Assembly: GCF_030730205.1 (NCBI RefSeq) | Contig: NZ_JANQVQ010000019.1 | Span: 4,825 to 68,824, forward strand | Source of the DNA: Paraglaciecola sp. | Lineage (GTDB): Bacteria > Pseudomonadota > Gammaproteobacteria > Enterobacterales > Alteromonadaceae | Direction of reading: 5' to 3' | DNA length: 64,000 bases | Shown: in pieces, positions 46,645 through 50,025 of the stretch | How positions within the stretch are numbered: position 1 is the stretch's first letter | Layout of the letters: each line of letters starts with the position of its first letter | Program-made: the position numbers and the translations under genes | Notes under the pieces: model-generated | The model's input: the letters and a program-made list of their open reading frames with translations, nothing else | What the model was told of the DNA's origin: nothing | Database searches by the model: none

Positions 46645-48573
46645 TCAAGGTATCGCTGGTGAGTTTGGATAGTGTTGCCAATAATCTTCAACCGCTAAGG
46701 GCAAAGGACTGAGAGGCTTAGCCTGTAAATTACTGGCATTGCTATTAGAACTCAAATTGATATTACTAAACCAATCATCCCCTGAGCGCATAGTAACCGG
46801 GGCTGGAAGGGTGCTTTGAATATTGGCGACATCCAGCTCAGGAAAGATAGTTTCGACCACCGCTTTGACTCGCTGTTGTATCTGAGGTGCATTATTTCGA
46901 TCTCTTTGCCCCCAGCTCACCACAAGCTCTTCATTTTCCACCGTGCTTATAATGGCGACATCGGCGCTGACACCTAAGCGATAAGCCATCATAAAATGCC
47001 CAAATAAAGTGGCAAAGTCTTCTCGAATTGTGGAGTAGCAATAGTAGTCTGGAGCGAAATCAGGCGTGAATAAAGCCACGACATCCTGTGCTTCTAATGC
47101 CAATTGGTTCGGCGTTGCTGTGTTTCCGGAAAAGCTGACATCAGCCAACTGTTTTAAATCTTCTGAATTTAAAGGGTAAATCTGGCTAAATCTGCTAGAT
47201 GATGCAGCATGGTTGCTGGAATAGCTTAAAGGGTTAGTGTTAGCTGATACTTGATCCCAGCTAGTTGGCGGAAAAAAATCGTTAGCATGGCCTAATTCGT
47301 GATACATCAACCAACTAGCATTGGCTTCTAAGGCTGAAAAGGGCTTAGTTAAACGACTCGCAGCTGGATAATCACCGTTGCGAATGTAATATTGATTATT
47401 TTTGACATAGCGCCAAGGGATCATAAATTGCAACGCCTCACCAAAACTACTGCGGTAATCAGCTTGATCGTTTAGGGTGTCACGCTCTTGTGGCGTCAAC
47501 CAAAAGTTAGCCGCGTCAAGATATATAGCGCCTGTCGCTGACCAATAAAAAGACGGACGCACATCATAGGCAATCACAATAGCGGTGGTTGCTCTGAGTA
47601 ATTTCAACATATCATCTGCGGTACTCGACTGTTGTAAAAACTGCTTAAATCTGTCGCCCATCCAAGCATGTGACACCACTAAACGCGATAGAACATCGTC
47701 TACCGTAGGGCTAAGGGTTTCGCTACCGAGTAAGGGTAAGGTAGCAAAACTACAGGTTGAAGAAAGTTGGTTATTGTAAATACAATCCACTAGTACATCA
47801 GCATATTTACCGTCACTGATATAAGGCTGTACTTCACTTGTTACGATGCGGTCTGCATAATTGGGGAAGTAGCCGTCGTCGTTAATACTAGTATTTTTAA
47901 TCAGTACATAGCTATTATCTGTGGCCACACTGCCATCACTAAAGTTGAGGGTGGCGGAAAATTCTAATACCGTATCTTGGCTAACTTCTGGCGCTTTAAA
48001 AAACAAATAATACTGTTCAGGTGTGAAATCGATGACTCGAGGACCCGCTACTTGGCGCCAAGTTATGGAGGTAATGTCGGCCGTATTAGCTGTACCTGTT
48101 TTATCCGCCCTTAACGATACTTTTGCTTGTTCTACCGCTACGTGATCTAATCTGACTGTTGCCTGTTCAGTGTTATTTTGCACTGCACTAAAGTGAATGG
48201 TTTTTTGTATTTGGGCTGACGAAGTTAATGTCACGGTAAGTTCGAAGCTATAGTTTGCTGCTTGAGAAATATCAAAAGAAATCACTTGGCTAGTGGGTGC
48301 TAAAAACTGCAATTCAGGCCCACTGATTTGCTGCCATTTAACCGTTTTAATAGTGTCATTGCTGGCAATTACTGCGAGGCTTGCTGCTTGGTTAGTTTGG
48401 AATGTGTCAGGATAAAAAAGTTGCAAACCATCTTCTACACGCTTTGGGCTAACCGATAACTGCTCATTAGGCTCTTGCACGGGCGTTGATGGCGATATAT
48501 CCGAATCACCAGAACCACCACATGCTTGTAAAATTAAGCTCAATAAGAGGGAAAGACTAAAGCGTTTTATCAT
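46645..48573 (-). CDS. Secreted lipoprotein with HExxH zinc-peptidase motif
   Basis: A 642-residue protein I cannot name. A signal peptide and lipobox (LILQACGG, Cys18) make it an envelope lipoprotein, with a low-complexity linker after the Cys. Two PKD/K319L-like repeats follow at about residues 50-230; each has a W-x-Q-x-x-G-P core (KWQQISGPELQFL, TWRQVAGPRVIDF). The C-terminal half has WLMYHELGHANDFF, with a full HExxH at residues 425-429, and a later acidic helix IREDFATLFGHFMMAYRLG that could give the third zinc ligand. It may be a gluzincin-type metallopeptidase; M60-like is one candidate family but the spacing does not clearly fit. It is last in a tight operon behind arsC-like, wrbA and DUF2069 genes. 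Confidence 0.7.
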   Translation of the reverse strand: MIKRFSLSLLLSLILQACGGSGDSDISPSTPVQEPNEQLSVSPKRVEDGLQLFYPDTFQTNQAASLAVIASNDTIKTVKWQQISGPELQFLAPTSQVISFDISQAANYSFELTVTLTSSAQIQKTIHFSAVQNNTEQATVRLDHVAVEQAKVSLRADKTGTANTADITSITWRQVAGPRVIDFTPEQYYLFFKAPEVSQDTVLEFSATLNFSDGSVATDNSYVLIKNTSINDDGYFPNYADRIVTSEVQPYISDGKYADVLVDCIYNNQLSSTCSFATLPLLGSETLSPTVDDVLSRLVVSHAWMGDRFKQFLQQSSTADDMLKLLRATTAIVIAYDVRPSFYWSATGAIYLDAANFWLTPQERDTLNDQADYRSSFGEALQFMIPWRYVKNNQYYIRNGDYPAASRLTKPFSALEANASWLMYHELGHANDFFPPTSWDQVSANTNPLSYSSNHAASSSRFSQIYPLNSEDLKQLADVSFSGNTATPNQLALEAQDVVALFTPDFAPDYYCYSTIREDFATLFGHFMMAYRLGVSADVAIISTVENEELVVSWGQRDRNNAPQIQQRVKAVVETIFPELDVANIQSTLPAPVTMRSGDDWFSNINLSSNSNASNLQAKPLSPLPLAVEDYWQHYPNSPAIP

Positions 48574-48576
48574 TGT

Positions 48577-49002
48577 TTAACCTCGTCTGTTTTGCTCAAA
48601 TGCTTGTTTTTCTTCAGCCAATTCTTCTTTGAGTTTACGAATACCTAAACCTAGTTCACGGCCTCGTAGCCGAGCATAAAAGCTACACCCAGTAAAAAGT
48701 GCGCTACACAATACAATTTCAACCAGGGCATAAAGTCTTTCTCCTTCAACGGCATAAACGGCCGTCAAACCATGCAGTAAGTAATACATCACGATAAAAT
48801 TGGTCCACGCATGCGTATAGGGTTTGCCCTGCACTAAGCCTTTGATGGGTAACAAGATAGGCACTATCCATAATATGACAGTAAACAGAGTCGACGTGGC
48901 TTTATCAGGTGTTAAGAAGAAATGCCAAATGACTAACCAAACAAGCAGTAAAAAATAACTACTCAGGGTTAATCGGCGATAGAACAGCGTATCAAATTTC
49001 AT
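48577..49002 (-). CDS. DUF2069 family membrane protein
   Basis: A 141-residue inner-membrane protein with about four membrane spans: LLVWLVIWHFFL, LFTVILWIVPILLPIKGLVQG, FIVMYYLLHGLTAVYAVEGE and ALVEIVLCSALFTGCSFYARLRGRELG. This is the DUF2069 pattern (YehP-independent, small four-helix family), commonly next to wrbA in gammaproteobacteria. A charged coiled tail ends it. Function unknown. Three bases separate it from wrbA and three from the lipoprotein gene downstream, so all are on one transcript. Confidence 0.88.
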   Translation of the reverse strand: MKFDTLFYRRLTLSSYFLLLVWLVIWHFFLTPDKATSTLFTVILWIVPILLPIKGLVQGKPYTHAWTNFIVMYYLLHGLTAVYAVEGERLYALVEIVLCSALFTGCSFYARLRGRELGLGIRKLKEELAEEKQAFEQNRRG

Positions 49003-49005
49003 TAA

Positions 49006-49596
49006 TTATCCTAGTTGACTGGCAATAGAGGCTAAACGTTTACCTTGAGCGATACACAAGGTAATTTCTTCACTACTTAATTTGTTTGGCGCGTGCTTTT
49101 CGGCTAAATGGCTTACACCGTAGGGGCTGCCGCCAGTTTTTGTGGTGTGCAATTCTGGCAGCGAGTAGGGTAATCCACAAATTAGCATACCGTGATGCAG
49201 GAGTGGCAACATCATGCTTAACAAGGTTGTTTCTTGACCGCCATGCATGCTGGCAGTTGAGGTAAATACGCAGGCAGGCTTACCTTGCAATACACCAGCT
49301 AACCACTCTTTGCTGGTTTCATCTAAAAAATACTTAAGCGGAGCGGCCATATTGCCAAAACGTGTAGGACTGCCCAGCGCAAGACCGCCGCATTCGGCTA
49401 AGTCCTCTAAGCTAACATAAGGGTCACCTGTTTCAGGCACACTTGAATGTAAGGCGCCAAGATTATTAGAAACTTCGGGTACCGTGCGTAACCTTGCTTG
49501 TAAACCGGCTTGTTCCACCCCTAAAGCAATTTTATTTGCCATGGCCTGAGTCGCACCATGTCGACTGTAATAAAGTACTAATATATCTTTTTTCAT
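49006..49596 (-). CDS. wrbA: NAD(P)H:quinone oxidoreductase WrbA-like
   Basis: A 196-residue flavodoxin-fold protein of the WrbA family, which reduces quinones by two electrons to avoid radicals. [24 protein letters not shown] is the FMN phosphate loop. [28 protein letters not shown] and [18 protein letters not shown] are typical of WrbA rather than of ordinary flavodoxins. ATG 49596 overlaps the arsC-like stop by four bases. It is followed by DUF2069. Confidence 0.9.
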
Positions 49597-49946
49597 AATA
49601 GGCTAAGCACGTTTTCGGGTGGACGACCCAGTATTGACTTACCTTGATAGCATACGATTGGCCGTTCAATCAGTTTTGGATTGGCGACCATTGCGTCTAT
49701 TAATTGTGCTTCGCTTACACTCTCCTCATCTAAGCCCAATTCTTTGTATACTGCTTCCCCTTTACGCATCAGTTGTCTCGCACTACTAAAACCAAGCTGT
49801 TGAATAATGGTTTGCAACTCACTATGGTTTGGTGGCGTAATTTGATAGTCAATGACACTAGGGCTCAGCCCTTGTTGTTCTAACAGCTGAAGGGTTTGAC
49901 GGCTTTTTGAGCAACGATTGTTGTGGTAAATAATAAGTTCAGACAT
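49593..49946 (-). CDS. ArsC-family arsenate reductase-like protein, YfgD-like
   Basis: A 117-residue thioredoxin-fold protein of the ArsC/YfgD group. It begins [24 protein letters not shown], with the single active-site Cys followed by the CSKSR loop, and contains [15 protein letters not shown] and [16 protein letters not shown]. YfgD-type members reduce arsenate or serve an unproven role. An ATG two codons upstream (49952) is an equal candidate for the start; neither has a clear ribosome site. In E. coli yfgD lies beside bepA and perM, as here. It heads the wrbA, DUF2069 and lipoprotein operon. Confidence 0.86.
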
Positions 49947-50025
49947 AAGCATTACGATTATTAGTATAAAAACGCCATTGTAACCTGTATTTTCTCAATA
50001 CAACAAAACGGAGACACAATAAACA

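Follow-up and report, generated by a model that had tools for sequence, protein, structure and literature searches.

A conserved, unnamed family of putative lipid-anchored metallopeptidases within an inherited gene cluster of Paraglaciecola

In the Paraglaciecola sp. assembly GCF_030730205.1, a stretch of 64,000 nucleotides of contig NZ_JANQVQ010000019.1 (positions 4,825 to 68,824, hereafter the window) carries on its minus strand four closely packed open reading frames (ORFs), encoding an ArsC-like reductase, WrbA, a DUF2069 protein and a lipoprotein with an HExxH motif. The first-pass annotation of this locus proposed a new stress-linked unit in which a secreted protease of no nameable family closes a compact redox operon, raising the questions of what kind of protein the lipoprotein is and whether its position reflects a shared function with its neighbours. 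The lipoprotein represents a metallopeptidase family that is real, conserved and still without a name, encoded within an inherited gene cluster, and, judged by sequence conservation and predicted models, it is very probably an active, membrane-anchored enzyme. The explanation favoured here, and considered probable, is that the gene, part of an inherited block, encodes a zinc endopeptidase anchored in a membrane, probably the outer one. The enzyme would belong to a gluzincin family as yet unnamed and have an active site of the MtfA/lethal-factor type.

The window protein carries the HELGH motif MYHELGHANDFF (H425-H429), and this full zinc motif was kept in 38/38 relatives found by whole-protein search and in 31/31 rows of a diverse alignment, and is thus no chance match. 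The residues H425, E426, H429, D432, Y511 and E518 were invariant in both alignments examined, A1 (31 rows) and A2 (59 rows), and the 28 invariant columns of A1 also included C18, C264, C274 and D519. Alignment A2, like A4, comprised the window protein and 58 of the 80 nearest loci; L069 was left out for a masked stretch, L099 for a broken frame, and 20 more were removed by eye against redundancy. These loci are the 80 best of 397, which weights the set towards near kin, and a pair of peptide patterns served to retrieve them. One of the two contains HEL[AG]HA, such that HExxH is partly built into the set; YX6E is in neither pattern. The combination HExxHxxD...Y-x6-E was shared by 103 of the 104 distinct sequences, and the remaining one has a broken frame (the 104 are the distinct strings from 118 loci, some genomes being represented twice by versions that differ in start codon). 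HExxH...Y-x6-E was present in 24 of 25 further relatives, even as whole-protein identity drops to about 30%.

The spacing from the second His to the downstream Glu was 88-102 residues in 103 relatives and exactly 89 in 72 of these, with the form E-D-x-A in 101/103 (L031 has EN, with Asn at 519 and E518 kept, and L146 has ED.G); at the zinc motif, L220 reads HELAHSSD. The sequence Y-x6-E-x-x-A alone turns up in 2% of shuffles of the region, so the weight rests on its conservation. The first-pass annotation had placed a third ligand within IREDFATLFGH, and the residue concerned is likely E518, given its invariance in the 31 and 59 rows, which would complete the gluzincin arrangement of HExxH and a downstream Glu ligand. 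The exception among the 25 further relatives, L222 (5989-7599, genome G936), has HQFAH and a replaced motif Tyr, with both zinc His residues and E518 retained; that Glu and Tyr were lost together while the metal ligands stayed fits their respective catalytic and metal-binding roles. By its sequence L222 is likely a dead enzyme, so that dead members of the family exist.

The catalytic domain, folded alone, gave a confident model (predicted local distance difference test, pLDDT, 95.6; predicted template modelling score, pTM, 0.93), in which HELGH lies on helix 412-433 and is followed by a short helix at 510-513, a turn, and a helix at 516-533 carrying E518. According to an excerpt of PMC6356308, MtfA and lethal factor share an HEXXH helix, after which comes a 3-10-helix-turn-helix bearing the YX6E motif, and by that definition the model has the active-site layout of this type, with YX6E after HEXXH on a short helix-turn-helix. 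The top rows of a Foldseek search of the Protein Data Bank (PDB) were all zinc peptidases, namely 4l7a (E 0.26), leukotriene A4 hydrolase and the MtfA structure 3dl1, and the list also includes non-peptidases at E above 4. VIA-align, used as a second look at 162 Foldseek-type candidates, ranked lethal factor first (Z 8.4, root-mean-square deviation (rmsd) 4.3, 180 residues aligned), then 4l7a (6.1), MtfA 3khi (5.4), ERAP1 (5.2) and M1 aminopeptidases (5.2 and below); the 50 rows listed, at Z 4.4-8.4, are gluzincins by class. The secondary structure is in accord with a zincin fold, and the modelled domain thus appears weakly matched to any one family and consistently matched to gluzincins.

Comparison with individual known systems supports functioning like an MtfA/lethal-factor-type gluzincin and does not support membership of MEROPS family M90, to which MtfA (PF06167) belongs. 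MtfA has HExxHxxD followed by Y-x6-E-x-x-A, as does the window protein, and its gluzincin fold resembles the predicted model (3khi: 164 residues aligned, rmsd 4.8); Y-x6-E-x-x-A was present in 19/19 MtfA proteins of related genomes. These were chosen by the pattern HE.AH.LD, which makes that stretch of the motif a product of the selection, and one of the 20 loci yielded no such protein. However, the spacing from second His to Glu is 56-57 in the 19 MtfA proteins against 88-102 in the lipoprotein relatives, and MtfA is not known to have a lipobox or PKD domains. PF06167 was unlisted for the window protein at E up to 1 and absent among the 25 Pfam families listed, of 29, for 31 relatives; in the window's genome it picks another protein, on contig C259, and 3dl1 and 3khi match an MtfA of that genome at E 8e-30.

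Lethal factor provides the best structural rows, ten of them at Z 8.2-8.4 (rmsd 3.8-4.5, 164-180 aligned) and the remainder at Z 5.6-7.8, and the window protein has the core of HEXXH and YX6E that the excerpt of PMC6356308 describes for lethal factor. This likeness is a resemblance of fold only: the catalytic-domain profile found zero sequence matches among PDB chains at E up to 10, and family M34, to which the lethal factor domain belongs, was not among the Pfam rows listed for the window protein and 31 relatives, beside the structural Z of 8.4. The two differ in that the window protein is predicted to be lipid-anchored and its gene lies mostly in a housekeeping block in the loci seen. The first Foldseek row, 4l7a, is BACCAC_01431, placed in MEROPS M93 in an excerpt of PMC3890501. 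Its VIA-align match extends over 188 residues, but its Foldseek match is not significant. PF15890, which we take to be the Pfam family of 4l7a, gave one sub-threshold match in 21 genomes and none in the window's genome.

Some of these comparisons weigh against the proposed assignment. The Foldseek search of the PDB with the catalytic-domain model returned no match at E 0.001, its best being 0.26; the lethal factor Z of 8.4 barely exceeds the 7-8 often reached by models without clear matches; and an hhalign profile comparison with MtfA gave a probability of 1.6%, below the 10.6% of the M48 BepA control, so that homology to MtfA is not proven by sequence. Eight other hhalign controls gave 0.3% or less, and the hhalign output puts the Tyr, Glu and Ala in register with MtfA, as an illustration rather than a proof.

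The absence of a nameable family, as stated in the first pass, held up: no Pfam or NCBIfam model exceeded its cut-off for the C-terminal domain of the window protein or its relatives. No title or abstract opening naming the family was found in open-licence PMC, which is no proof of absence. The M60/enhancin family (PF13402) shares HExxH and gave a sub-threshold Pfam match (E 0.079; 12.9 bits against a cut-off of 25.8) and a weak PDB match (7sci, E 1.3). The M60 motif is HExxH-x(8,28)-E. In agreement with the earlier remark that the ligand distance differs from standard M60, residues 438-458 of the window protein contain no Glu and no invariant column, the candidate third ligand being 89 residues from the second His, and M60 thus fails by motif. 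M91 (PF14891) matched 4/31 members weakly (best E 0.0041; one score seen was 14.6 bits against a cut-off of 25) and did not match the window protein. A BamA-like match (E 0.015-0.03) and TamL matches in 8/31 relatives (best E 0.01) were discounted as chance. In a viral structure library there was no match at E 0.001; a fragment of a minor capsid protein ranked first (E 0.016), ahead of a myovirus protein with the name 'Lethal factor' (E 0.24).

Outside the catalytic domain, the protein has the features of a bacterial lipoprotein, with a hydrophobic N-terminal segment and an LQAC lipobox-like start whose Cys, C18, was invariant in 31/31 rows. A lipobox pattern was found in 92 of the 104 sequences, 81 of these 92 having Gly at position +2 after the Cys, and a +2 Gly suggests outer-membrane sorting. 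The two PKD-like repeats noted in the first pass were likewise recovered: K319L-like_PKD (PF22352), the sole Pfam match of the lipoprotein, lies at residues 71-122 (E 1.7e-6), NCBIfam matches residues 64-231 to the PKD-like tails of M36 peptidases (E 2e-14), and the full-length model (pLDDT 89.7) places a pair of Ig-like domains at roughly 45-131 and 137-226, in addition to the catalytic domain. VIA-align of this region gave Z 9.6 to the collagenase G PKD domain 2y72 and Z 9.0 to the ColH PKD domain 4jgu, and the matches of a full-length fold search were mostly Ig, PKD and similar beta-sandwich modules. The PKD domains are absent from shorter relatives.

These observations suggest the following sequence of events. 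The protein would be exported and lipidated at C18, with probable Lol sorting to the outer membrane given its +2 Gly, and a flexible linker and the two Ig/PKD spacer domains could form a stalk on the membrane. In the catalytic domain, where C264 and C274 probably form a disulfide, H425 and H429 of one helix and E518 of a later helix would bind zinc, E426 would activate water, and Y511 of the YX6E motif may stabilize the transition state, leading to cleavage of envelope or extracellular proteins.

Relatives are widespread but patchily distributed. Among 98 relative genomes, 56 had some match, 39 of them including the catalytic domain and 17 the N-terminal PKD part alone; the catalytic-domain profile matched 65/295 genomes of the order, 7/369 of the class and 8/299 of the phylum, all eight of the last inside the order. 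One of the 65, G849, has a broken copy of the gene, with two fragments containing stops (G849:C8:167787-168306). Pattern matching in a public genome collection gave 466 stretches, 397 of which encode relatives, although the stretches are not all distinct genes, and a plasmid collection gave one match, covering the N-terminal part only. The nearest named relatives are from Paraglaciecola, a P. hydrolytica protein having 62% identity. Within the genus, the full lipoprotein was present in 4/21 genomes and wrbA in 21/21, so that 17 genomes have wrbA and no lipoprotein, one of which (G011) is only 84% complete. By their record titles, the 80 nearest loci are from Alteromonas, Glaciecola, Colwellia, Thalassotalea and similar genera, which are marine.

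The four genes of the cluster are packed as first described, with an overlap of 4 bases between arsC and wrbA and gaps of 3 bases on either side of DUF2069, and family models confirmed ArsC, WrbA and DUF2069 as neighbours of the 642-residue lipoprotein (Table 1).

Table 1. Features of the lipoprotein locus, in window coordinates
Feature	Position	Strand	Evidence
Lipoprotein, putative metallopeptidase, 642 aa	46645..48573	-	ORF, family alignments, predicted models
Predicted catalytic domain, residues 229-606	46756..47889	-	predicted model, fold search
YX6ExxA motif, Y511-x6-E518-D-F-A521; proposed catalytic Tyr and third zinc ligand	47011..47043	-	alignments, model
HELGHAND, H425-D432, predicted HExxHxxD zinc/catalytic motif, helix 412-433	47278..47301	-	alignments, model
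Two Ig/PKD-like domains, residues about 45-226	47896..48441	-	PF22352, model strands, VIA-align
Signal peptide with lipobox, lipidation expected at C18	48520..48573	-	C18 invariant 31/31
DUF2069 membrane protein, 141 aa	48577..49002	-	PF09842, E 2.8e-33
wrbA, NAD(P)H:quinone oxidoreductase, 196 aa	49006..49596	-	PRK03767 and TIGR01755 above cut-off
arsC-like glutaredoxin-type reductase, 119 aa	49593..49952	-	TIGR00014, 143 bits (cut-off 106)
Thioredoxin-like gene, divergent	50026-50490		
bepA-like M48 protease with TPR repeats	50476..51930	-	PF01435 and TPR matches, synteny

To determine whether this packing reflects a functional unit, in which the four genes would answer thiol, quinone or arsenate stress and the lipoprotein would clear damaged envelope proteins, the neighbourhoods of the relatives were compared. 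Besides the tight spacing in the window, such a unit would be consistent with arsC and DUF2069 lying beside the lipoprotein gene in 79 of the 80 nearest loci, and with all four genes occurring together in the 57 of these that have wrbA. However, this conservation covers the entire surrounding block, which also includes hda, DUF2066, purM, bepA and perM, and all four genes occurred together in only 14 of 38 wider loci, wrbA being present in 16; 31 of the 38 lie in the bepA/perM block adjoining at least two of arsC, wrbA and DUF2069, and 7 have no such neighbours. Conversely, DUF2069, wrbA and arsC were side by side in 20/20 loci lacking the lipoprotein (16 of them from the 17 same-genus genomes, the other four from elsewhere). 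Among loci picked as unlinked or short-form, 28/32 were without any of the cluster neighbours and 4/32, L227 among them, were in the usual block; one set of 20 loci was hand-picked, many for their short or unlinked look, and both the 38-locus and the 28/32 counts were tallied by eye. The possibility that the lipoprotein is mostly found without the other three genes, which the first pass had considered fatal to its proposal, was therefore borne out beyond the Alteromonas/Glaciecola/Paraglaciecola group and not within it, and operon conservation likewise held among the nearest loci but not the wider ones. In the metagenome bin G017 the gene lies elsewhere, without the cluster neighbours, which may be a binning error. 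The wrbA gene and the divergent thioredoxin-like gene were nearly always paired (both in 71 loci, of 73 and 73 among the 118, duplicates included), as if gained or lost together, and on a core-gene tree the 55 wrbA-bearing loci form nearly one clade (their common ancestor spans 56/75), such that the presence of wrbA looks like clade history. Lipoprotein tree distances tracked those of purM, bepA and perM (Pearson 0.86 over 60 of the 75 loci, the core set itself containing purM and bepA), and arsC followed the core set less well (0.53). Some unlinked copies do have redox-looking neighbours of other kinds, including peroxiredoxin-like and dihydrolipoamide-dehydrogenase-like ORFs upstream in L067 (4466-6895), L068, L211 and L214, a thioredoxin-fold-like ORF at L182:6742-7290 and a 2Fe-2S/FAD reductase; such neighbours are sometimes seen near PKD-less relatives. 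The reductase and an AstE-like protein were identified by Pfam, and the other names, like those of aroE-like and lon-like neighbours elsewhere, were read from translations. Of the signs of a redox link, these neighbours are the strongest left, with no partner common across lineages. The redox operon reading is thus weak and the new stress-linked unit improbable, and the position of the gene looks like inherited shared gene order. Given the block of perM, bepA, arsC, DUF2069, lipoprotein, hda, DUF2066 and purM, the lipoprotein gene is likely co-transcribed with its neighbours without common chemistry.

The placement within this block also allows the lipoprotein to be an envelope quality-control protease partnering BepA, the product of the closest other protease gene in it. 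The bepA gene was present in 110/118 loci, and where the thioredoxin-like gene is missing (37 loci) it lies directly before arsC with a gap of 7-140 nucleotides (median 52), both counts again including duplicates. We take the arsC-like gene of the window to be the counterpart of E. coli yfgD, and a figure legend of PMC5927463 gives bepA-yfgD as a pair of genes in an operon. However, the lipoprotein has been lost while bepA remains, and lies away from bepA in 28/32 picked loci, making such a partnership unlikely. Slightly better, though still doubtful, is the prospect that marine polymer degraders use the lipoprotein as a protease at their surface, to gain nutrients or to remodel the matrix, with its PKD domains binding substrate: the collagenase-like PKD domains of a lipoprotein, the marine genera of the nearest loci, and a within-genus presence as variable as that of accessory functions are in its favour, and the missing PKD domains of shorter relatives are against it. 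Least probable of all is a catalytically dead zincin-fold protein retained for binding or structure, since, despite the example of L222, the catalytic residues are complete in the window protein and in all but one sequence of each relative set. The unnamed, membrane-anchored gluzincin within an inherited block remains the preferred explanation.

Several further features were observed around these loci. In the window, hda and DUF2066 (44731-46556, overlapping by 13 bases) converge on the lipoprotein gene, as in most of the 80 nearest loci. At L058:6516-6929, L060:8744-9172 and L226:7616-8077, related membrane-like proteins of 137-153 residues precede the lipoprotein gene in a non-syntenic, DUF2069-like position; the two scanned, those of L058 and L060, had no Pfam match above cut-off. 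Promoter and terminator scans gave 7 and 2 sites, where shuffled sequence gave 7.4 and 3.1, which is no evidence for either, and a PADLOC scan of the window proteins found no defence match.

A tight gene cluster can mislead, as here, where the order looks inherited and the presence and absence data break the suggested functional link. Relatives of the lipoprotein are many in public genomes, yet the catalytic domain is unnamed in Pfam and NCBIfam. A more specific and speculative proposal is that the family, with an MtfA/lethal-factor-type active site (HExxHxxD...Y-x6-E) and a His-to-Glu spacing of 88-102, sits on the outer membrane by way of PKD spacers in Alteromonadales and does without spacers in other lineages, acts as a second envelope protease beside BepA, and includes a few dead members in which Glu and Tyr were lost together. 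The MtfA/lethal-factor peptidase group is best known from the regulator MtfA and one toxin; if active, the lipoprotein would add a membrane-anchored branch to this group and a new envelope protease for marine Alteromonadales.

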